Of a stretch of 64,000 nucleotides of DNA, positions 37,778-45,560 are shown piece after piece. Where the stretch lies: positions 1 through 64,000 of the forward strand of contig JAOZHR010000024.1 of the NCBI GenBank assembly GCA_026014805.1, in the 5' to 3' direction. How positions within the stretch are numbered: position 1 is the first letter of the stretch; the number at the start of each line of letters is the position of its first letter. The translations under genes and the position numbers were made by a program. The DNA comes from Candidatus Bathyarchaeota archaeon (lineage in GTDB: Archaea; Thermoproteota; Bathyarchaeia; Bathyarchaeales; SOJC01). Below the pieces are notes generated by a model. It ran no database searches. It had not been told where the DNA came from and saw nothing but the letters and a program-made list of their open reading frames with translations.

Positions 37778-38016
37778 TGAAACTCCACCATTTCTAGTAA
37801 TTTTAACGCTTCGAGCAAGCCTTCACAATACGCCACCGAGGCGAGAGCGGTCTCAAATCTTTTTTGGTCACGATAATATAGCGCATCCTCCAAGTATCTC
37901 TTCGCATAATCCAAAACCTTTTCGCCCCCTCCTTTATGGAAACTTCCTTCTTTTATTTGTTTGAAAACTTGCTGAGTGTTTCTTAAATATTTTTCAACTA
38001 ACCCTTCAATAGTCAT
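37756..38016 (-). CDS. DUF357 helical protein
   Basis: 86 residues, all alpha, with YAKRYLEDALYYRDQKRFETALASVAYCEGLLEAL, the DUF357 pattern split over two helices. The function is unknown. It sits between dphB and ribL with overlaps on both sides, so it is cotranscribed. ATG 38016 overlaps the dphB stop. Confidence 0.85.
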   Translation of the reverse strand: MTIEGLVEKYLRNTQQVFKQIKEGSFHKGGGEKVLDYAKRYLEDALYYRDQKRFETALASVAYCEGLLEALKLLEMVEFQWPIENK

Positions 38017-38816
38017 TTAATCAGCTTCTTTACGCTTTCAGGTGCATTTGTGAGCTCAATGAGAGCTTCTGCCTCTACAAAATGAAGTTTTCCTGGGAAA
38101 ACGAGTGTGTGCGGAGGACTACCGAAATCATAATCTAATGCTTCGCCGAGTAGACAGGCTTTAACAACCGGGTTCATGGAACCGGCTCTTGCTATACCCA
38201 CAACTAATGTACAGTATGTAATTATTGACTCTCTCCTTCTTTTCTCTGTTACCAGAAGCGTTTCCAGCGCCTCCTTTATAGTCATAAATCGCTTTTCCTC
38301 TGCTCTGACGTCTAGGAAGCAAAGTGTATGTAATCCTGCCTCTAGGTTCGTTTTCACCACGTTGTAGGGCGTTTCTGAAACAATGCAGCCGTCGGTAAAG
38401 GGGATTGTTACGCTTCTCCCAAACTTGTAGTTCTGCAAGCCTGACATCCCTATTGCTGCGGAGACTATAGAAGCGCCATGGACTAGGTGCGTTTTAATTC
38501 CCAATTTTTTTGCTTTTATCCGTAAATTCACATGTGTGGTGGCAATCAGCGGATCCCCAGGAACAAGAAAAACCGTTCTGCCTTTCTTTGCCACAGCAAG
38601 AATCTGCCGCCCATTATCCTCTTCAAGCATTTTCCTATTCACCACAACAATCTTCTTCCCCGTAAGATTTTCCAGTTTCTCAATATTCAGCCCCTTCATT
38701 AGACTGGTGTATAATTCCACGAAGACAAAATCTGCCTTTCTCACTTCTTCTAGACCACGTAGTGAAACATCGTTTTCGTCGTGTAATCCCAAGCCAACAA
38801 ACACAAGCTCACCCAT
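38013..38816 (-). CDS. dphB: Diphthine synthase
   Basis: 267 residues. SAM-dependent methylation step of diphthamide synthesis on elongation factor 2. It begins ELVFVGLGLHDENDVSLRG, then VELYTSLMKG, VPGDPLIATTH and YKFGRSVTIPF, all typical DphB motifs. It is the first gene of the dphB-DUF357-ribL operon. Confidence 0.95.
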   Translation of the reverse strand: MGELVFVGLGLHDENDVSLRGLEEVRKADFVFVELYTSLMKGLNIEKLENLTGKKIVVVNRKMLEEDNGRQILAVAKKGRTVFLVPGDPLIATTHVNLRIKAKKLGIKTHLVHGASIVSAAIGMSGLQNYKFGRSVTIPFTDGCIVSETPYNVVKTNLEAGLHTLCFLDVRAEEKRFMTIKEALETLLVTEKRRRESIITYCTLVVGIARAGSMNPVVKACLLGEALDYDFGSPPHTLVFPGKLHFVEAEALIELTNAPESVKKLIK

Positions 38817-38890
38817 TTAAGTCACCACTAGCTTATGTGCAATAACGAAAAATATTAGGGTAGCTATGCTACAAAAGGATTGGAGAACTT

Positions 38891-38934
38891 GTGGGCCCGT
38901 AGCTCAGCAAGGCTAGAGCGGCGGACTCTTAATC
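38891..38934 (+). repeat. attL: truncated tRNA-Lys 5' half, 44-bp direct repeat
   Basis: The repeat is identical to 45481-45524. It contains the acceptor 5' strand, D arm, anticodon 5' stem and the CTCTTAA loop, then diverges. The original tRNA promoter region (AAAAATATTA near 38850) still lies upstream, so this end may give a truncated tRNA-like transcript. Confidence 0.92.
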
Positions 38935-38984
38935 ATCTTTATAATCCTAAAAAGAGCTTAGATTGGGCTTCTTTTAAGGAAAAC

Positions 38985-39779
38985 ATGTTGAAAAACCGTT
39001 CTCGTAAACATGCCAAAGACGTAACAAACTATGCTAAGAAGTATTGCCATTGCTTGCTGAAGGAAGATTTCTCTGAGCTTCGCAGCTTCTCTCCTTCTAA
39101 AAGAAGACATGTTCTAGCTGCACTCTCAAACTTGAGCAAGTTTCTAGGAAGATATGAAGATTTCAAGAAACTCATTAGAAACTACGGTTTGAAATGGGAA
39201 TCGGTTAAAGTTGAGGATTTGCTTATTTCACGTCTTAAAAGGTTTGATGCTCAAGGCTCTGTTTTAGAATGGGTGAAGGTGATCAAAGAGAGGTTCTCAC
39301 AGTTTAGCGTATTCATGGATTTCGTCACTGTCAGTGGCTTGAGGCTTGTGGAAGCTATTGAATCTTACAATTTGATGATAGACTTGTCTGACAAGGGAAA
39401 ATTAAACGAGTATTATGACGTTGAAAGAGAAGTTTTGGAGCATTTCAGATTCAAACAACTTTTCATAAGGAACAATAAAAAGGCTTTCGCAAGCTTTGTT
39501 CCTAAACAGCTAGTTAAAAGAATCAGCAGAGAAGAAAGGCTAACAATTTCCAAAATCTACAACCGCATAAAAAGGAAAGGTTTCAAGCCTAGATTTAGCG
39601 ATGTTAGAGAATACTACGCTACTTACATGACGAAGTATCTAACGCAGTCAGAGATTGACTTTCTGCAGGGCCGTGTTTCTGGTAGTGTGTTTATGCGTAA
39701 CTACTTCAACCCGGCATTATTGGATGATTTGAAAGAACGAGTTTTCAAAGGAATCAAGAATTTGAAGGTGTTAGCCTGA
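38985..39779 (+). CDS. Catalytic piece (Int-C) of the partitioned tyrosine recombinase
   Basis: 264 residues from ATG 38985, which has AAGGA at good spacing; the frame is open back through attL to TTG 38880. Archaeal SSV-like integrase catalytic domain. In the 38880 numbering: Arg155 in SGLRLVEA, Lys201, Arg243 in DVREYYATYM, LQGRVSGSV, nucleophile candidate Tyr275 in RNYFNP. The canonical HxxR histidine is not obvious. In the integrated state it lacks the N-terminal RHH piece found at 45236-45529. Confidence 0.85.
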   Translation: MLKNRSRKHAKDVTNYAKKYCHCLLKEDFSELRSFSPSKRRHVLAALSNLSKFLGRYEDFKKLIRNYGLKWESVKVEDLLISRLKRFDAQGSVLEWVKVIKERFSQFSVFMDFVTVSGLRLVEAIESYNLMIDLSDKGKLNEYYDVEREVLEHFRFKQLFIRNNKKAFASFVPKQLVKRISREERLTISKIYNRIKRKGFKPRFSDVREYYATYMTKYLTQSEIDFLQGRVSGSVFMRNYFNPALLDDLKERVFKGIKNLKVLA

Positions 39780-40006
39780 TGCAGAAAGCCGAAGTTAGAT
39801 TTGATAACTATCTACTGCCTCATTTTCTACGCAAGTCAGTGGTTGCTAAAACGGAATCTGGCGACATAATGGGCGTTCTCAGAAGGTTTGAAATGGGAAC
39901 ACAGACTTCGCATAAGCCTACTGTTCTGATTATGGAAATAGAAGATACTCTGCTAATCGTTAGAGCTTGGGATACTATAGCGACAAATGAGAGGATAAGG
40001 TTTTGA
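39779..40006 (+). CDS. Small element protein of unknown function
   Basis: 75 residues, ATG overlapping the Int-C stop. It has a beta-rich look (AEVRFDNYLLPHFLRKSVV, VLIMEIEDTLLIV), similar to a small single-domain barrel. No family is recognised. It overlaps the next gene by 4 bp, so it is part of a four-gene operon headed by the integrase. Confidence 0.55.
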   Translation: MQKAEVRFDNYLLPHFLRKSVVAKTESGDIMGVLRRFEMGTQTSHKPTVLIMEIEDTLLIVRAWDTIATNERIRF

Positions 40007-40458
40007 GTCAGCAGTTTTATGAAAGGTTTGTCAGCTTATTTTTTGGCTTTATTATTCTTTTAATGCTGGTTTTCGTGACAGCAGAGCTAATCTTCTTTTA
40101 TTTTTCCATGCAAAACATCATTTTCTACTATGCTTATTTAGGAATGCTATTGTCTGATTTTTTCTATTTCATAAAGTATTATTTGCAGTTTAGAGATTTC
40201 AGAGAAGCTCTGAGTCAAGGCTTGCTTTTTCCATCAAACAACGAAAGCCCTTCAGATTTAGAACCATTAGAAACAGATGGATTAGAAGATGTTTCTTTGA
40301 AAGTTTGTCTATTCTATCGAAATGGGGCTAGTTTGAATGACATAGCTAAAGATTTTGGTTTCAGCCATCCTACTCAAGCGAAAAGAGAGTTGATTAAAGG
40401 CTTGGATATTTTGCTCAAAAGTTATGAAAAACACGAGAAAAAGGTGAGTGAAAAATAA
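40003..40458 (+). CDS. Membrane protein with a C-terminal HTH-like region
   Basis: 151 residues, TTG start at 40003. Two membrane helices (about 8-32 and 38-58) are followed by an acidic linker and a helix-turn-helix-like segment (GASLNDIAKDFGFSHPTQAKRELIKG, about 108-133). It looks like a membrane-tethered DNA-binding protein. It overlaps the second recombinase by 1 bp. The HTH call is by eye. Confidence 0.5.
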   Translation: MSQQFYERFVSLFFGFIILLMLVFVTAELIFFYFSMQNIIFYYAYLGMLLSDFFYFIKYYLQFRDFREALSQGLLFPSNNESPSDLEPLETDGLEDVSLKVCLFYRNGASLNDIAKDFGFSHPTQAKRELIKGLDILLKSYEKHEKKVSEK

Positions 40459-41105
40459 TGCCTCAAGCATGGCTTCAGAACGTTAAACGTAGAACGAATG
40501 AAGATATTAAAGAGCGTTTAGGGATTCAGCAAATTTACTACATGGTAACAGCTAACTCGTGGCCCTATAAGACAAACATGGAATTCTACATTAAAAGAGA
40601 CAAAGCCTTAATGAGCTTGCTATTTCTTACTGCAGGCCGAATCTCTGAAGTGTTATCACTAAATAAGGAGCAGTTTGATTTTCAAGCTGACAAAAACTTC
40701 ATTATCATACGAAACATGATTCTAGTTAAGAGGTTAAAGACAAGAAAGGGTAAACCAGTTAAGCATAGAACTGCTCCTATTCGTGACGAGGTTCCGCTTG
40801 CGCTTAAAGGCCCACTATCCAAATTCACGAGGCTTGTTCAAGACTATCTCAATCTGATTGAAGAACCTAAAGAGAAGTTATTCAAGTTTAAGCGTCACCG
40901 TGCATGGCAAATAGTGAATAATGTAACTGGACAGTGGTGTCACTGGTTCAGGAGCCAAGCTGAAAGCTACTATGGAAAATACGTTTTTAACACACCCTTC
41001 GCACTAAGAGATTTTGTGGGAGTATCAGATATTGAAAGCTTGGGGCCATATGTGAAGACTCAATGGAGAGACTACCAAGGCAAATTGCTCGGAAAAACAG
41101 ATTAA
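40458..41105 (+). CDS. Second, divergent tyrosine recombinase
   Basis: 215 residues. Only the catalytic domain is visible. Box I is LFLTAGRISEVLSL (Arg61), followed by a beta-hairpin with RTAPIRDEV; CHWFRSQ gives His162 and Arg165 in HxxR form, and Tyr198 or Tyr206 in PYVKTQWRDYQG is the candidate nucleophile. The core-binding domain is short or absent. It could resolve multimers or control excision. It ends the left operon. Confidence 0.7.
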   Translation: MPQAWLQNVKRRTNEDIKERLGIQQIYYMVTANSWPYKTNMEFYIKRDKALMSLLFLTAGRISEVLSLNKEQFDFQADKNFIIIRNMILVKRLKTRKGKPVKHRTAPIRDEVPLALKGPLSKFTRLVQDYLNLIEEPKEKLFKFKRHRAWQIVNNVTGQWCHWFRSQAESYYGKYVFNTPFALRDFVGVSDIESLGPYVKTQWRDYQGKLLGKTD

Positions 41106-41178
41106 ACCATTTCGAAAACTGACTCAATATAGAAAAATGGGGAAACTGAGCCGAAAATGATTTACTGACTAGAGTTTT

Positions 41179-41367
41179 CTATACTGTTATATCTGCGATT
41201 TGAGCTTTGGGAGCATTCGTTTTGACTGAGTAAATTCCGTTTTTGCATCCGTCTTTTGATTCGTAGGCTTCGCTGGAAGCTATGACTTCACCATTGGGAG
41301 CTTTTAATCTCCATCTGAATTTTTCGGCAGCATCTTTATAGATTTCGAATTTTGGCATTGCTGACAA
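41179..41367 (-). CDS. YegP-type DUF1508 protein
   Basis: 62 residues forming one DUF1508 repeat: KFEIYKDAAEKFRWRLKAPNGEVIASSEAY with the ending typical of the family. Host and element genomes use it widely; function unknown. It lies alone facing the integrase operon, so it may be cargo. Confidence 0.85.
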   Translation of the reverse strand: MSAMPKFEIYKDAAEKFRWRLKAPNGEVIASSEAYESKDGCKNGIYSVKTNAPKAQIADITV

Positions 41368-41582
41368 AATAATCGCCTCGCTGTAATAGTAGGCGTTGTT
41401 TAAAAATGCCCCTTAACACACACATGTCAATGACGAGCCATCAAACTATGGACGTTTCTTGTGCGTCTATTGAATATATAAGTCTCCTCTAGCATTTTGG
41501 CGTGGAATCTAATTTTCAATCGATTCTCGACATATTAAAGAGATTGAAATAACCTCCTTCAAACCGTTAGTGGCTAGATATC

Positions 41583-41834
41583 TTGTGGTATTGGTTGGAA
41601 GATAAATACAAGAGCGAGTTGTTAACACTCTTGAAGATTTTTAAGGGGGATAGGATTATTGCTTTTTCCTACGAACAGAAAGATGATTTGTGGAGTCTAT
41701 TTATTCATCTCTCCAATGGTGTCATTCAGGTTAGGGGCAACAAAAAACACACGTTAGAAAGAACTCTTTACATCTCACCAATAGTCGAAACTGTTCCTTG
41801 GAAAAACCGAGCAAACTCTTTCCTCAATATTTAA
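41583..41834 (+). CDS. Small element protein of unknown function
   Basis: 83 residues, TTG start. A TATA box GAATATATAAG at 41471-41481 lies upstream. The beta-rich sequence (RIIAFSYEQKDDLWSLFIHL, VIQVRGNKK) suggests a small fold without known relatives. It is followed by a strong hairpin. Confidence 0.45.
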   Translation: MWYWLEDKYKSELLTLLKIFKGDRIIAFSYEQKDDLWSLFIHLSNGVIQVRGNKKHTLERTLYISPIVETVPWKNRANSFLNI

Positions 41835-41873
41835 CGACTAAACCAACTTGTGTCTTTTGAAAGAATCCAATGC

Positions 41874-41901
41874 ATTCTACAATATGCCTCTATTGTAGAA
41901 T
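41874..41901. terminator. Perfect 11-bp hairpin between convergent genes
   Basis: ATTCTACAATA (41874-41884) and its exact complement TATTGTAGAAT (41891-41901) are separated by 6 nt. It lies 40 bp after the rightward gene and 117 bp after the leftward block. It may be a terminator, an operator or a replication/recombination site. Confidence 0.45.
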
Positions 41902-42017
41902 AAATGTTGATTGGAAGGGCTTAATGAACAGAGATAGAGTTATTCTATAGACTATAAGCCTCTCGCACTAGTCGTATAGGCGTTTGTTCGGTTGTTTGCT
42001 TGTTTCTTTTGGTTTAA

Positions 42018-42653
42018 TCATCTCTTTTTCGCTTTGAACAACACGAAATCCTTTGATGCGTCAGCAATATCAACTGGAGAACCATTGTCGTCTAGGATGA
42101 ATCCAATTTGGTGGAATAATCGTATATCTCTTCCGTTATGCGTATCCATCAACGCATACAAAATCGCTATAGCCCCTAGTGAATGAAGAGCGTTATCTAA
42201 ATTGCCACTCTCAAGCGTCACTACCTCTGAATGCTTCACATCAGTAAAAGCACTCCACCATTCGAATTTACCATTCTCTTTGCGAAATGGATATAAGACA
42301 TACTCACCTAACCCTGCAATACCAACGGCAACTAGATGAATGTTCTCTATCTCTTTGGATAGCCATTCTTGGTAATTTTTTATGTTCAGCGTATTTTCCT
42401 TCTGATTTGCTGCTTTTACCAACATATCCATAATAGAGCTGAAAACACTTCCACAATCTCTAAGAATACTAGCAAACTCGTAAGAGAACACCTCAAAGTT
42501 AGCGTGGTGGAAATCAACATATCGGCTTGCTTCAATCATTCTACTCTCAATCGCAGCATAGCGAAGTGCTGTGTAATCTAGAGTATCTGGAAACCAATTT
42601 CTTTTTGAGAATTTTCTCCATAGTAGCTGTGTTAGTCTCCTGTACCTTGGCAT
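42018..42653 (-). CDS. Element protein of unknown function
   Basis: 211 residues, largely helical, ending FVLFKAKKR. Conserved-looking parts are FHHANFEVFSYEFASILRDC, VAVGIAGLGEYVLYP and SLGAIAILYALMD. No membrane helices and no family recognised. It is the last gene of the leftward block, 21 bp after its neighbour. The helical, His-bearing N-part could be a HEPN-like or Abi-like domain, but that is a guess. Confidence 0.5.
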   Translation of the reverse strand: MPRYRRLTQLLWRKFSKRNWFPDTLDYTALRYAAIESRMIEASRYVDFHHANFEVFSYEFASILRDCGSVFSSIMDMLVKAANQKENTLNIKNYQEWLSKEIENIHLVAVGIAGLGEYVLYPFRKENGKFEWWSAFTDVKHSEVVTLESGNLDNALHSLGAIAILYALMDTHNGRDIRLFHQIGFILDDNGSPVDIADASKDFVLFKAKKR

Positions 42654-42674
42654 TCTAGGATAGTCTCCCTTTTT

Positions 42675-43184
42675 TCATGGGAATACATATTTTGCCTTTT
42701 CTTTTTGACTTTTTCCCTCTAGTTTCTGCTTTTCTTCCTTAATCAACTGTTCTAATGCGATCTCCTTAGCCTTCTCACGTAATTGAACATCTGCTAGCAG
42801 TTTCTTAGCTTTAGGTTCCTTCTGCCTAATTGCTTCATGAATGCTTGCCTTACTCCTACAAAACACAATACTGAGTTGATCGTATGAAAACCCCTTCCAC
42901 CCTGCATCTTTATCTTCAGGATCAACATACGACTTGCTTTCAAAATAGACTAACGCAATTAGTACTTTATGCTCTTCCGACATATGCCGATTACACATAG
43001 AAACTGGATAATCACGCAATAATTCTAGGAAGAAACATTCATTCATTTCTTCTTCATTGGTTTTATCTTTTCTACGATAGAATTCTCTTATTTTCTTAAT
43101 GAGCTGCTCTACCGTAATGTTAGAATAGTCAGTTTCAATAGGCGGTAATTGTATGCCCTTTTTCCTCAGAAGCCATAGACTCAT
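42675..43184 (-). CDS. Element protein with a possible HTH
   Basis: 169 residues. GFSYDQLSIVFCRSKASIHEAIRQ (about 107-130) looks like a helix-turn-helix, followed by a Lys/Glu-rich coiled C-terminus. It may regulate element genes or act in copy control. It follows the 112-residue gene by 7 bp. Confidence 0.5.
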   Translation of the reverse strand: MSLWLLRKKGIQLPPIETDYSNITVEQLIKKIREFYRRKDKTNEEEMNECFFLELLRDYPVSMCNRHMSEEHKVLIALVYFESKSYVDPEDKDAGWKGFSYDQLSIVFCRSKASIHEAIRQKEPKAKKLLADVQLREKAKEIALEQLIKEEKQKLEGKSQKEKAKYVFP

Positions 43185-43191
43185 AGAGCTT

Positions 43192-43530
43192 TCACTCCAA
43201 AATCGCCTCTAATCTATCATTACTGCTCAAAACTCGAGAAGCCTTCTTTCGCTTGTCAATAACTATGAGTTTCTTAGTCTTACGATACAGCTTAAACTTT
43301 TTCAGAACAGTGTCTAAAGGCACTCCTACAGCTACACAGTTTATCGCACTCAGAAGCATACCCTTACCCAAATATCCATTAGAAACCGGATAATAACTAT
43401 GCTCACTGTCAAAATAGTGCTCCAAAATAAATAGCAACTCATGAAAACTTAAGGGTTCACCGTAAGCTGTGACAAGAACAAGAGTGTCGTTTTCACCTTT
43501 TTGGCCGTCAACAAGCTCAAACAGAACCAT
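43192..43530 (-). CDS. Element protein of unknown function
   Basis: 112 residues, ATG overlapping the stop of the upstream gene. It has a mix of helices and strands (LFELVDGQKGENDTLVLVTA). No motif of a known family. The tight coupling on both sides suggests a shared task with the 149- and 169-residue proteins. Confidence 0.5.
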   Translation of the reverse strand: MVLFELVDGQKGENDTLVLVTAYGEPLSFHELLFILEHYFDSEHSYYPVSNGYLGKGMLLSAINCVAVGVPLDTVLKKFKLYRKTKKLIVIDKRKKASRVLSSNDRLEAILE

Positions 43531-43979
43531 TAAGGGTTAACCTCACCTTCAAGAGCTGGTTTTTCATGCAAATCTAAAATCAACTGTGCTGAAGGAACCC
43601 TGTCTTTCCACTCTTCAGCTAGAATAAACACTTTATTACGCCAAGAAGGTTGAGGGTGGATATCCCATTGATCCAGCACCCTTTTGAAGTATATCTCCTT
43701 ATGCTCCAAAATCTGTTTTTCGTGGATTTGTTCTGCGGTTAACGGTGGATCCAAAACTAATTTTTGGCTGTATTTCTTAATGTGCTCTTCATAAACTTCT
43801 TTTGAAATATAACCCAGCCGATACATTCCTTCAGTAAAGGGTAATAGGCCAGCATAACTTCTCCCTAGGCCTTTATCTGCTTGTAGTCTAATGAAACCCA
43901 CATATAGAGGTTTTGAAAGATAAAGCATGACTCCATGTTCTCTGAAATTACCCAATAGAAACGCCTCTCGGGAAAACAA
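43530..43979 (-). CDS. Element protein of unknown function
   Basis: 149 residues; the first about 17 may not be translated, since an inner ATG starts MLYLSKPLYVGFIR. GLLPFTEGMYRLGYIS and WRNKVFILAEEWKDR look like a folded helical domain. No family is recognised. It overlaps the 61-residue gene upstream. Confidence 0.5.
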   Translation of the reverse strand: MFSREAFLLGNFREHGVMLYLSKPLYVGFIRLQADKGLGRSYAGLLPFTEGMYRLGYISKEVYEEHIKKYSQKLVLDPPLTAEQIHEKQILEHKEIYFKRVLDQWDIHPQPSWRNKVFILAEEWKDRVPSAQLILDLHEKPALEGEVNP

Positions 43980-44133
43980 TGAATGGTAGAAGTTTGGGGC
44001 TATAGTAGCTAGTTAGATACAGTATGCGTTTTAGCAGTATGCGTTTTAACAGCTTACCACTGAGCTGTTCATGTCTTCTGGTTTCGGATTCTGTGACAAA
44101 AGTTTTAAACAGTTTTGTGTATATTTCATCCAT
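43948..44133 (-). CDS. Small basic element protein
   Basis: 61 residues from ATG 44133, chosen because AGGAGGTG lies about 10 bp upstream. It contains a five-residue duplication LLKRILLKRI, encoded by a 15-bp tandem repeat at 44020-44049. It may bind nucleic acid or membrane; unknown. Confidence 0.45.
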   Translation of the reverse strand: MDEIYTKLFKTFVTESETRRHEQLSGKLLKRILLKRILYLTSYYSPKLLPFIVFPRGVSIG

Positions 44134-44168
44134 TGAGGCCCCCACCTCCTTTTTTGTGAGCTTGCTTG

Positions 44169-44267
44169 TTAGCCTCCTTTCTGAGCCTTCTTACCAGCAC
44201 GATACCTTCGTTTTTGATCTCTCCAGAATTTTCGCAATTCTGGGCCATGCTTGAATCCTCGAGCCAT
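44169..44267 (-). CDS. 32-residue basic peptide
   Basis: MARGFKHGPELRKFWRDQK and a KKAQKGG end. A TATA element (CTATTATATATGG on the minus strand, 44299-44308) lies about 32 bp before the ATG, so the mRNA would be nearly leaderless. Its net charge is strongly positive. It heads the leftward block. Too short for an ORF caller. Confidence 0.35.
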   Translation of the reverse strand: MARGFKHGPELRKFWRDQKRRYRAGKKAQKGG

Positions 44268-44320
44268 TTTTATCAACTATAGTCTTGAGGACAAGCCATA
44301 TATAATAGAATCTACGTTAA

Positions 44321-44407
44321 AGTCTAATAGACTAGAACCGCAATAACGGTGTGAAATATGAAAAGAAGCATGAAAGTCTTTCCTAGTCTAATACAATGTC
44401 TATTAGA
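44321..44407 (+). promoter_or_regulatory. Two AGTCTAATA operator-like palindromes before the RHH gene
   Basis: AGTCTA-A-TAGACT is at 44321-44333. TCTAATA (44387-44393) and TATTAGA (44401-44407) flank the start codon of the RHH gene, and both sites share AGTCTAATA. A divergent TATA stretch is at 44299-44308. This fits autoregulation by the 82-residue RHH-like protein. Confidence 0.45.
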
Positions 44408-44644
44408 GGGCTGAGCATTTTGGGAAAGAATATTAGCATTTACTTAACTGACGAAAACTTGGAATTTCTTGATCAATTATGCAAGGCTTGGAAAATGGGA
44501 AGGAGTCCAACAGTCCAATACCTTCTTGACTATATTCGGAAAATGGCACCAATGATGCTTCAAATAATGAAAGAAACACAATCTCCTTTAACTGATCACT
44601 TAACTAAGATATTTCCAGAATCGGAAAGAGGTGTTAAGCCATGA
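44396..44644 (+). CDS. Small ribbon-helix-helix-like regulator
   Basis: 82 residues. NISIYLTDENLEFLDQL (strand plus helix A) and GRSPTVQYLLDYI (helix B) fit a ribbon-helix-helix, with a helical tail. Its start codon is inside a palindrome, and its stop overlaps the next ATG. It probably controls the right operon or the leftward block. Confidence 0.55.
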   Translation: MSIRGLSILGKNISIYLTDENLEFLDQLCKAWKMGRSPTVQYLLDYIRKMAPMMLQIMKETQSPLTDHLTKIFPESERGVKP

Positions 44645-45219
44645 GTATTGAAGATTTCACTCAGGAGAAACCCAACCTGAATAATGCTTGGGAGACTTGG
44701 TTATCAATTGGGTTAAAAAGTGAGATCACATCAATACAGCAGTTACATCAATTGAGCCTTCAGATAATAAAATCAAAGATATACCCTATGATTACTGCAC
44801 TAATTGGGGATGGACTGATAAAATGGTATTGCTTCCTTATCCATGGCAGAAACAACGATCCTAATCTTTACTTTCATATAAGATTCGAACCCCAAGAAAG
44901 AATAGAGAAAAGAGAGGAAATAGAAAGGTTCCTTCCGGAATATTGTGAGCATACGAAGACATTTTTAGAAGGTGCTAACGAAAGAAATGATGATCCCAAA
45001 AAAATAAGCGATATTGACGAATCTCTCTTTGAGCAAGGAGAGATCGAAGAAGCTTGGAGAATAATTGGAGAGCAATCTGGATGGATTATGAAGTTTTTGA
45101 ATGCACATAAAAATGATGTAAACATTCTAGATGCTCAATTTGTGCAATTCCTACATTTCTTTACGAACATGGTAGGATTAGGGAACCAATTTACATATCG
45201 CAATATCAGGAGATTCTGA
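44641..45219 (+). CDS. Element protein of unknown function
   Basis: 192 residues, mostly helical and acidic (LYFHIRFEPQERIEKREEIERF; SLFEQGEIEEAW). The gene is translationally coupled to the RHH gene (ATGA) and is 16 bp before the Int-N gene. No family is recognised; a lysis, defence or partition role is equally open. Confidence 0.5.
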   Translation: MSIEDFTQEKPNLNNAWETWLSIGLKSEITSIQQLHQLSLQIIKSKIYPMITALIGDGLIKWYCFLIHGRNNDPNLYFHIRFEPQERIEKREEIERFLPEYCEHTKTFLEGANERNDDPKKISDIDESLFEQGEIEEAWRIIGEQSGWIMKFLNAHKNDVNILDAQFVQFLHFFTNMVGLGNQFTYRNIRRF

Positions 45220-45235
45220 GTTTGGGTGAAAAGGC

Positions 45236-45529
45236 ATGACTGGGATTTATAGAAAAAGTTACTCGAGTGAAAGTATTCAAAATACTCGAGTGAAAGTAAT
45301 CCGCAAAACCGTAGGCATTACATTGCCACAGAGTCTAGTCAAAAAAGCTCGAAAACACAAGCTAAACATAAGTAGAATCACAGAACAAGCCCTAAATAGC
45401 ATTTTAGACTATCTTGAATCCCCAAACAAAACCGAAAGCTCTAAATTTCTTAATTCACGTTCTTTTCTGAAAGAAAGTGAGTGGGCCCGTAGCTCAGCAA
45501 GGCTAGAGCGGCGGACTCTTAATCCGTAG
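45236..45529 (+). CDS. RHH (CcdA-like) N-terminal piece (Int-N) of the partitioned recombinase
   Basis: 97 residues from ATG 45236, GGTGA at good spacing. A ribbon-helix-helix part (KTVGITLPQSLVKKARKHKL, NISRITEQALNSILDYL, about 25-62) resembles CcdA/CopG-type proteins. It then runs into attR: the tRNA sequence is translated as WARSSARLERRTLN, the same as in the attL frame, and stops inside the tRNA gene. In the excised circle it would continue into Int-C to give one 377-residue protein. Confidence 0.8.
   Translation: MTGIYRKSYSSESIQNTRVKVIRKTVGITLPQSLVKKARKHKLNISRITEQALNSILDYLESPNKTESSKFLNSRSFLKESEWARSSARLERRTLNP
45260..45298 (+). repeat. 16-bp direct repeat with 23-bp period inside Int-N
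   Basis: TACTCGAGTGAAAGTA occurs at 45260-45275 and 45283-45298. The 23-bp spacing is about two helical turns, suited to tandem protein binding on one face. It may be an operator or arm site of the RHH-integrase. It lies in the first codons of the gene. Confidence 0.6.
45481..45524 (+). repeat. attR: 44-bp direct repeat forming the 5' half of the complete tRNA-Lys
   Basis: Identical to 38891-38934. It is brought in by the element and completes the tRNA. A TATA-like CTAAATTTCTTAA at about 45441-45453 inside the element lies at a distance similar to that of the original promoter on the left side. Confidence 0.92.
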
Positions 45530-45560
45530 GTCGCGGGTTCAATTCCCGTCGGGCTCGCCA
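45483..45560 (+). tRNA. tRNA-Lys(CUU)
   Basis: All four arms fold: acceptor GGGCCCG with CGGGCTC, anticodon stem GCGGA/TCCGT around loop CTCTTAA (anticodon CTT), T stem GCGGG/CCCGT around TTCAATT. CCA is encoded at 45558-45560. It is intact only because the element supplied an exact 5' half. Its 5' part doubles as the end of the Int-N frame. Confidence 0.95.

Follow-up and report, generated by a model that had tools for sequence, protein, structure and literature searches.

A suicidal tyrosine integrase of Bathyarchaeia with a ribbon-helix-helix N-module and a candidate promoter for the tRNA gene that it enters

The splitting of an integrase gene upon integration is known from the class of suicidal integrases, which includes the arrangement of pTN3 at the 5′ half of a tRNA gene; PF16795 is the domain of suicidal archaeal integrases (PMC8371274). 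In the fuselloviral members of the SSV1/SSV2 type, an attachment site (attP) of ~44 bp in tRNA sequence lies inside int, and the gene is split into int(N) and int(C) at integration. We describe here a locus in a 64,000-nucleotide stretch of a Candidatus Bathyarchaeota archaeon (contig JAOZHR010000024.1, positions 1 to 64,000; the window) that resembles these genes in its embedded att, its split, its PF16795 catalytic domain, and a palindrome beside att. It differs from them in its N-module, that is, SSV1, SSV2, and SSV5 carry PF07935 (SSV1_ORF_D-335), whereas the Bathyarchaeia element lacks PF07935 and carries a CcdA-like ribbon-helix-helix (RHH) module instead, as expected from the first-pass annotation, which had called such a module on a recombinase unusual. 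Also, the fuselloviral att has been placed in the 3′ half of the tRNA (PMC8371274), whereas the att in the window is in the 5′ half; identity between the fuselloviral integrases and that of the window is ~25% at best, over a short stretch. The locus shares with the pTN3-like elements of Thermococcales a displaced native promoter and the active-site pattern R..K..AxxR..Y (PMC8371274, PMC5495485); these elements, compared by description only, have a different host lineage, and their descriptions contain neither an RHH module nor a promoter box in int(N). The CcdA/CopG proteins likewise match RHH families above the Pfam cut-off, but in the window the module is fused to a tyrosine recombinase and no toxin partner was seen. 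A known kind of integrase, the suicidal one, is extended by a new N-module, and we consider it very probable that int(N) and int(C) are the parts of an SSV/pTN3-type integrase that was split by integration and that keeps the tRNA expressed from a promoter borne by int. The features of the locus are (coordinates in the window):

38845 to 38859, + strand, native tRNA-Lys promoter ACGAAAAATATTAGG, left outside attL and now directed into int(C) (unoccupied sites of relatives)
38880 to 39779, + strand, int(C), catalytic integrase part, 299 aa, in-element codons from 38935, PF16795 Phage_integr_3 (Pfam, PHROG)
38891 to 38934, + strand, attL, 44-bp copy of the tRNA-Lys 5′ half (repeat search)
45236 to 45529, + strand, int(N), N-terminal part, 97 aa, with the RHH module, ending within the tRNA (CcdA PF07362)
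45302 to 45406, + strand, RHH core, CcdA match, residues 23-57 (Pfam and AlphaFold2 model)
45432 to 45448, + strand, candidate portable tRNA promoter in int(N), CCGAAAGCTCTAAATTT, resembling a transcription factor B recognition element and TATA box (BRE/TATA), at -51 from the tRNA 5′ end (matrix, recoding, scars)
45455 to 45480, + strand, inverted repeat TCACGTTCTTT-TCTG-AAAGAAAGTGA adjoining attR, candidate accessory site or hairpin (covariation)
45481 to 45524, + strand, attR, 44-bp repeat, tRNA 5′ half (repeat search)
45483 to 45560, + strand, tRNA-Lys(CTT), rebuilt by integration, with no other close match in the genome (tRNA and genome search)

The element is an insertion of 6590 bp (38891-45524; ~6.6 kb) in the 5′ half of tRNA-Lys(CTT), and its borders are a perfect 44-bp direct repeat of that half, a length within the 40-50 bp by which tRNA att sites of suicidal integrases are recognized; in an Rfam scan, the tRNA was the sole match. 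In the sister species G189 the site is empty: BLAST aligns it across the reconstructed junction in a single piece (3006 columns, 94.3% identity), and the open reading frame (ORF) at 38013-38816, read as a dph-like gene, is ~73 bp from attL in the window and ~73 bp from the tRNA in G189. Because the empty site aligns in one piece and the spacing to the dph-like gene is kept, the element is a 6590-bp insertion made by site-specific recombination.

The first-pass annotation had proposed that an integrase gene is partitioned by this integration and is whole only after excision, and its core reading is borne out. The right ORF (45236-45529) and the left ORF (38880-39779) translate the repeat in one common frame (WARSSARLERRTLN), and their join across the repeat is 1134 nt long, that is, 377 codons plus a stop, with no internal stop. 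int(C) matches PF16795 at 3.3e-9 (37.3 bits; cut-off 27) and the PHROG 5127 integrase at 2.4e-13; in the family alignment, the catalytic R/R/Y are invariant and the GLR, DIR/DVR, and NYF columns line up. int(N) matches CcdA PF07362 at 1.2e-5, above the Pfam cut-off, as do seven further N-modules. The AlphaFold2 model of the RHH region has helices at residues 32-40 and 45-61, with a predicted local distance difference test score of 82-94 over residues 21-60; no strand formed in this monomer model, which was examined for a fold that is a ribbon-helix-helix dimer. The joined 377-aa protein found no match in a PDB sequence search.

The first-pass annotation had proposed a search for uninterrupted homologues, and one was found: a Bathyarchaeota metagenome-assembled genome (MAG) encodes a single 364-aa RHH-integrase (L073/L039, JALHSQ010000203.1) in which CcdA and PF16795 both score above the Pfam cut-off. 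The att within this gene corresponds to a tRNA-Gly(GCC) of the same MAG that lies elsewhere, is intact, and has no adjoining integrase fragment, so this MAG contig is probably an unintegrated element. The catalytic part of the predicted L073 model resembles the catalytic domain of SSV1 Int (template modelling score, normalized by target length, of 0.67-0.69 and Foldseek E of 0.05-0.09) and also XerA; across the SSV1 integrase and XerA matches, the Foldseek E values are only 0.001-0.09.

A search of 257 genomes of the same class (Bathyarchaeia) gave matches in 72, and we read forty stretches. In these, N fragments adjoin tRNA genes and C fragments lie at the opposite border; some elements are in the opposite orientation relative to the tRNA (anti-oriented). 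Direct repeats of 25-59 bp connect the N and C fragments in 19 elements, and joining across these repeats restores open frames (ORFs of 319-406 aa in 19 elements besides that of the window). Of 20 elements (those of 19 other genomes plus that of the window), 19 have the int(C) frame as the longest one to enter attR (binomial p = 1.2e-8 at 1/3), a test on elements that are related and hence not fully independent. Integration, the split, the continuity of frame, and the intact homologue can all be read directly from the DNA.

Integration into the 5′ half deprives the tRNA of its own promoter, which in the window is left at 38845-38859; the unoccupied tRNA-Lys genes of G189, G190, and G183 have ACGAAAAATATTAGG upstream at the identical spacing (-48). 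A position matrix trained on the upstream regions of 84 native tRNAs has the consensus GAAAAnnTTTAA and a median start at -48. Scored with this matrix upstream of the tRNA, int(N) of 12 co-oriented elements has a mean of 6.49 vs 6.51 for native promoters; the same region scores 1.70 in 14 anti-oriented elements, where the tRNA retains its own promoter, and 1.49 after shuffling (p = 1.7e-4). Synonymous recoding of the same peptides rarely attains the observed box scores (combined p = 5e-6), and the RHH genes and those with a CxxC N-module (vide infra) arrive at the same box arrangement with different codons. In L066, an anti-oriented relative whose int(N) DNA is 77% identical, the box is lost. 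When att is the 5′ half of a tRNA, the int codons just upstream of att look like a native archaeal tRNA promoter at the right spacing. After pTN3-type integration, expression of the tRNA has been ascribed to the integrase promoter (PMC8371274); our literature searches, which did not reach most subscription papers, found neither an RHH module in suicidal integrases nor a promoter inside int(N).

The box also outlasts the elements. In six decayed RHH-type insertions, the box, at -52 to -44, still has 15-17 of its 17 bases, whereas the adjacent palindrome has decayed; one of the six is at a tRNA-Ala in the genome of the window, and in three of them (L108, L109, and L054) the similarity to int(N) starts at the box or slightly before it. 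In the genome of the window, L136 (G000:C3:17587-18620), at tRNA-Ala(CGC), is a decayed member of this family that has an integrase C-tail, a broken int(N), and a retained box; a remnant matching L136 lies on C28 of the sister genome G189. Ahead of tRNA-Arg(CCT) in the genome of the window (L137), a CxxC-type int(N) linker with a promoter-like box is another probable scar. tRNA-Lys(CTT) is a recurrent target, with scars of the same integrase type in three further genera of the family (L107 in G182, L108 in G184, L109 in G185).

Immediately before att, most RHH-type genes, in either orientation, have an inverted repeat of 2 × 11 bp. In 13 elements, which were selected for a visible repeat (L036, L069, and L070 have no clear one), Watson-Crick pairs fill 128 of the 143 pair cells, several types of pair occur at each position, and none of 5000 shuffles did as well. 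As a feature of every N-type the palindrome was rejected; it is absent from the CxxC and third-type genes. Palindromes adjoin att in 7 of 8 fuselloviral integrase genes examined (L191, L197, L190, L199, L200, L192, and L201; e.g., TTAGGGGG-nnn-CCCCCTAA), mostly upstream but downstream in SSV2 and SSV4. Our best guess is that the palindrome serves as an accessory site, which attP has and attB lacks and which integration leaves on one side; it may instead be an RNA hairpin.

The embedded att is also a seam. One catalytic family carries at least three kinds of N part: RHH, a CxxC module that reads as zinc-ribbon-like and has no significant match in Pfam, and a third type. Mapped on the int(C) tree, the N-types must have changed 5 times or more, where 2 would be the minimum, and a single RHH clade is rejected. 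In two genomes of one genus, the uninterrupted integrase genes L034 and L058 have 81% DNA identity over the N part plus att, and the similarity stops exactly at the end of att; at the protein level, they are 75% identical in N vs 32% in C. Such exchange can be followed at the level of DNA: the att is the point at which N-modules are swapped on one catalytic family. Because att lies between the modules, recombination at att also exchanges N-modules among elements. Suicidal integrase halves with differing histories also figure in the Int(N)/Int(C) reassortment model by Badel et al. for the pT26-2 family (reviewed in PMC8371274); exchange at the att seam extends that model, in that the units exchanged are entire N-domains from different families and the breakpoint in the DNA falls exactly at att. 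No clear tandem integration with an intact hybrid gene (N_A-att-C_B) was seen. Further exchange points are suggested by the integrases L038 and L045, whose linker and palindrome before att (GGSAETPSGFSQ) are nearly identical while the rest of their N and C parts has diverged.

Could the RHH ORF and the integrase be two separate genes, with a common frame by chance or because tRNA 5′ halves are open in one frame? Each does have a start codon of its own, an upstream TTG for the int(C) ORF and an ATG preceded by GGTGA for the RHH ORF; however, the frame is kept in 19 of 20 elements, N remnants adjoin tRNAs with C at the far border, and the uninterrupted fused gene L073 already contradicts this reading, which is highly improbable. 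A single gene that is an ordinary suicidal integrase like those of SSV1 and pTN3, with the tRNA transcribed by read-through from the promoter of the integrase and the box being coding sequence, is unlikely. The box does encode a conserved TESSKF linker, but it resembles native tRNA promoters in both sequence and spacing, it recurs in CxxC-type linkers with other codons, and it is lost in the anti-oriented L066 in spite of the similar N DNA and kept in scars without int(N). The box and the palindrome might both be binding sites for the integrase (its RHH part): RHH dimers favor palindromes, both sequences adjoin attP, and fuselloviral att sites are also flanked by palindromes. That neither is a promoter we regard as improbable, as the presence of the box depends on the orientation of the tRNA, unlike the expectation for a protein site, and the box persists in scars that have lost the integrase and whose palindrome has decayed; for the palindrome, a candidate integrase (RHH) binding site is our preferred reading. 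Finally, int(N) could be retained in the integrated state because it acts alone as an RHH regulator, as the first-pass annotation suggested. At the tRNAs of L066, L068, and L069, RHH int(N) ORFs are intact, with no int(C) found within the stretches covered (some ~18 kb), and the RHH regulator of SSV1, F55, is a separate protein (cited in PMC4158269); but several solo N copies contain stops, and the promoter box explains the retention of int(N) equally well, so we judge this role unlikely.

Several observations weigh against a split integrase with an int-borne promoter. The co-oriented element L051 has no promoter box, several of the individual promoter-test p-values exceed 0.05, and the promoter p-values are too small owing to the shared ancestry of the elements; kinship among the elements makes the statistics overstate independence in general. 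Foldseek of the RHH model, whose confidence is modest, gave no PDB match. That L073 is free is deduced from a MAG contig, and terminal overlap as proof of circularity was sought in L039, L034, and L058 and found in none. Neither single-sequence nor alignment searches among viral contigs gave relatives, and tblastn against plasmids and phages gave no relatives beyond a marginal SSV5 match. With these points included, we think it probable, with some reservation, that suicidal integrases entering the 5′ half of a tRNA carry a portable promoter before attP that makes insertion harmless and leaves a lasting scar, and that the att seam reshuffles their N-domains.

In the pathway that we propose, the free circle would have one gene for a 377-aa protein (RHH module, linker, ~14 residues read from the tRNA half, and catalytic domain), with attP inside it. 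Integration into the 5′ half of tRNA-Lys(CTT) would cut this gene, placing int(N) just upstream of the rebuilt tRNA and int(C) at the other border; with the halves separated, the enzyme would be lost. The host promoter would remain at attL ahead of int(C), and the int(N) codons directly upstream of att would provide a substitute BRE/TATA promoter ~50 bp before the tRNA, so that a single-copy essential tRNA would still be expressed. The RHH module would probably serve in DNA contact and oligomerization, perhaps at the palindrome next to att; we assign it this part because Int(N) of SSV1 and SSV2 is the DNA-binding, multimerizing part (PMC8371274). Excision would depend either on the rejoined gene or on an integrase supplied in trans; the latter has been shown for SSV2 and pTN3/TKV4 relatives (PMC8371274). 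We infer the enzymatic and promoter activities and the roles of the RHH module and palindrome; the promoter-like box and its retention are observed. State-dependent switching of the int promoter in ICEKp1 is similar in that integration exchanges the promoters flanking a tRNA att site, but there the tRNA promoter drives int (PMC13023037), whereas in the Bathyarchaeia element the int-borne promoter would drive the tRNA.

Within the element, the ORF at 40458-41105 (+ strand) encodes a second, reduced tyrosine-recombinase-like protein (215 aa; PF00589, 2.7e-6) that has a 57% identical copy in an element of G117 (L046) and is a possible accessory or directionality factor. A small ORF at 44396-44644 weakly resembles RHH_1 (E 0.27) and is possibly a second RHH protein of the element.

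The element adds an archaeal lineage and an N-module, both new, to the suicidal integrases, and the candidate embedded promoter and the domain-swap seam at att are two features of specialist interest beyond the known class. The promoter box, if true, would explain how a single-copy tRNA survives the replacement of its promoter, with the same DNA serving as protein code when the element is free and as promoter when it is integrated. The evidence for an intragenic att as a point of domain shuffling is direct, and it bears on how self-destroying integrases persist and change specificity. Our results also suggest that some archaeal tRNA promoters may be relics of lost elements.

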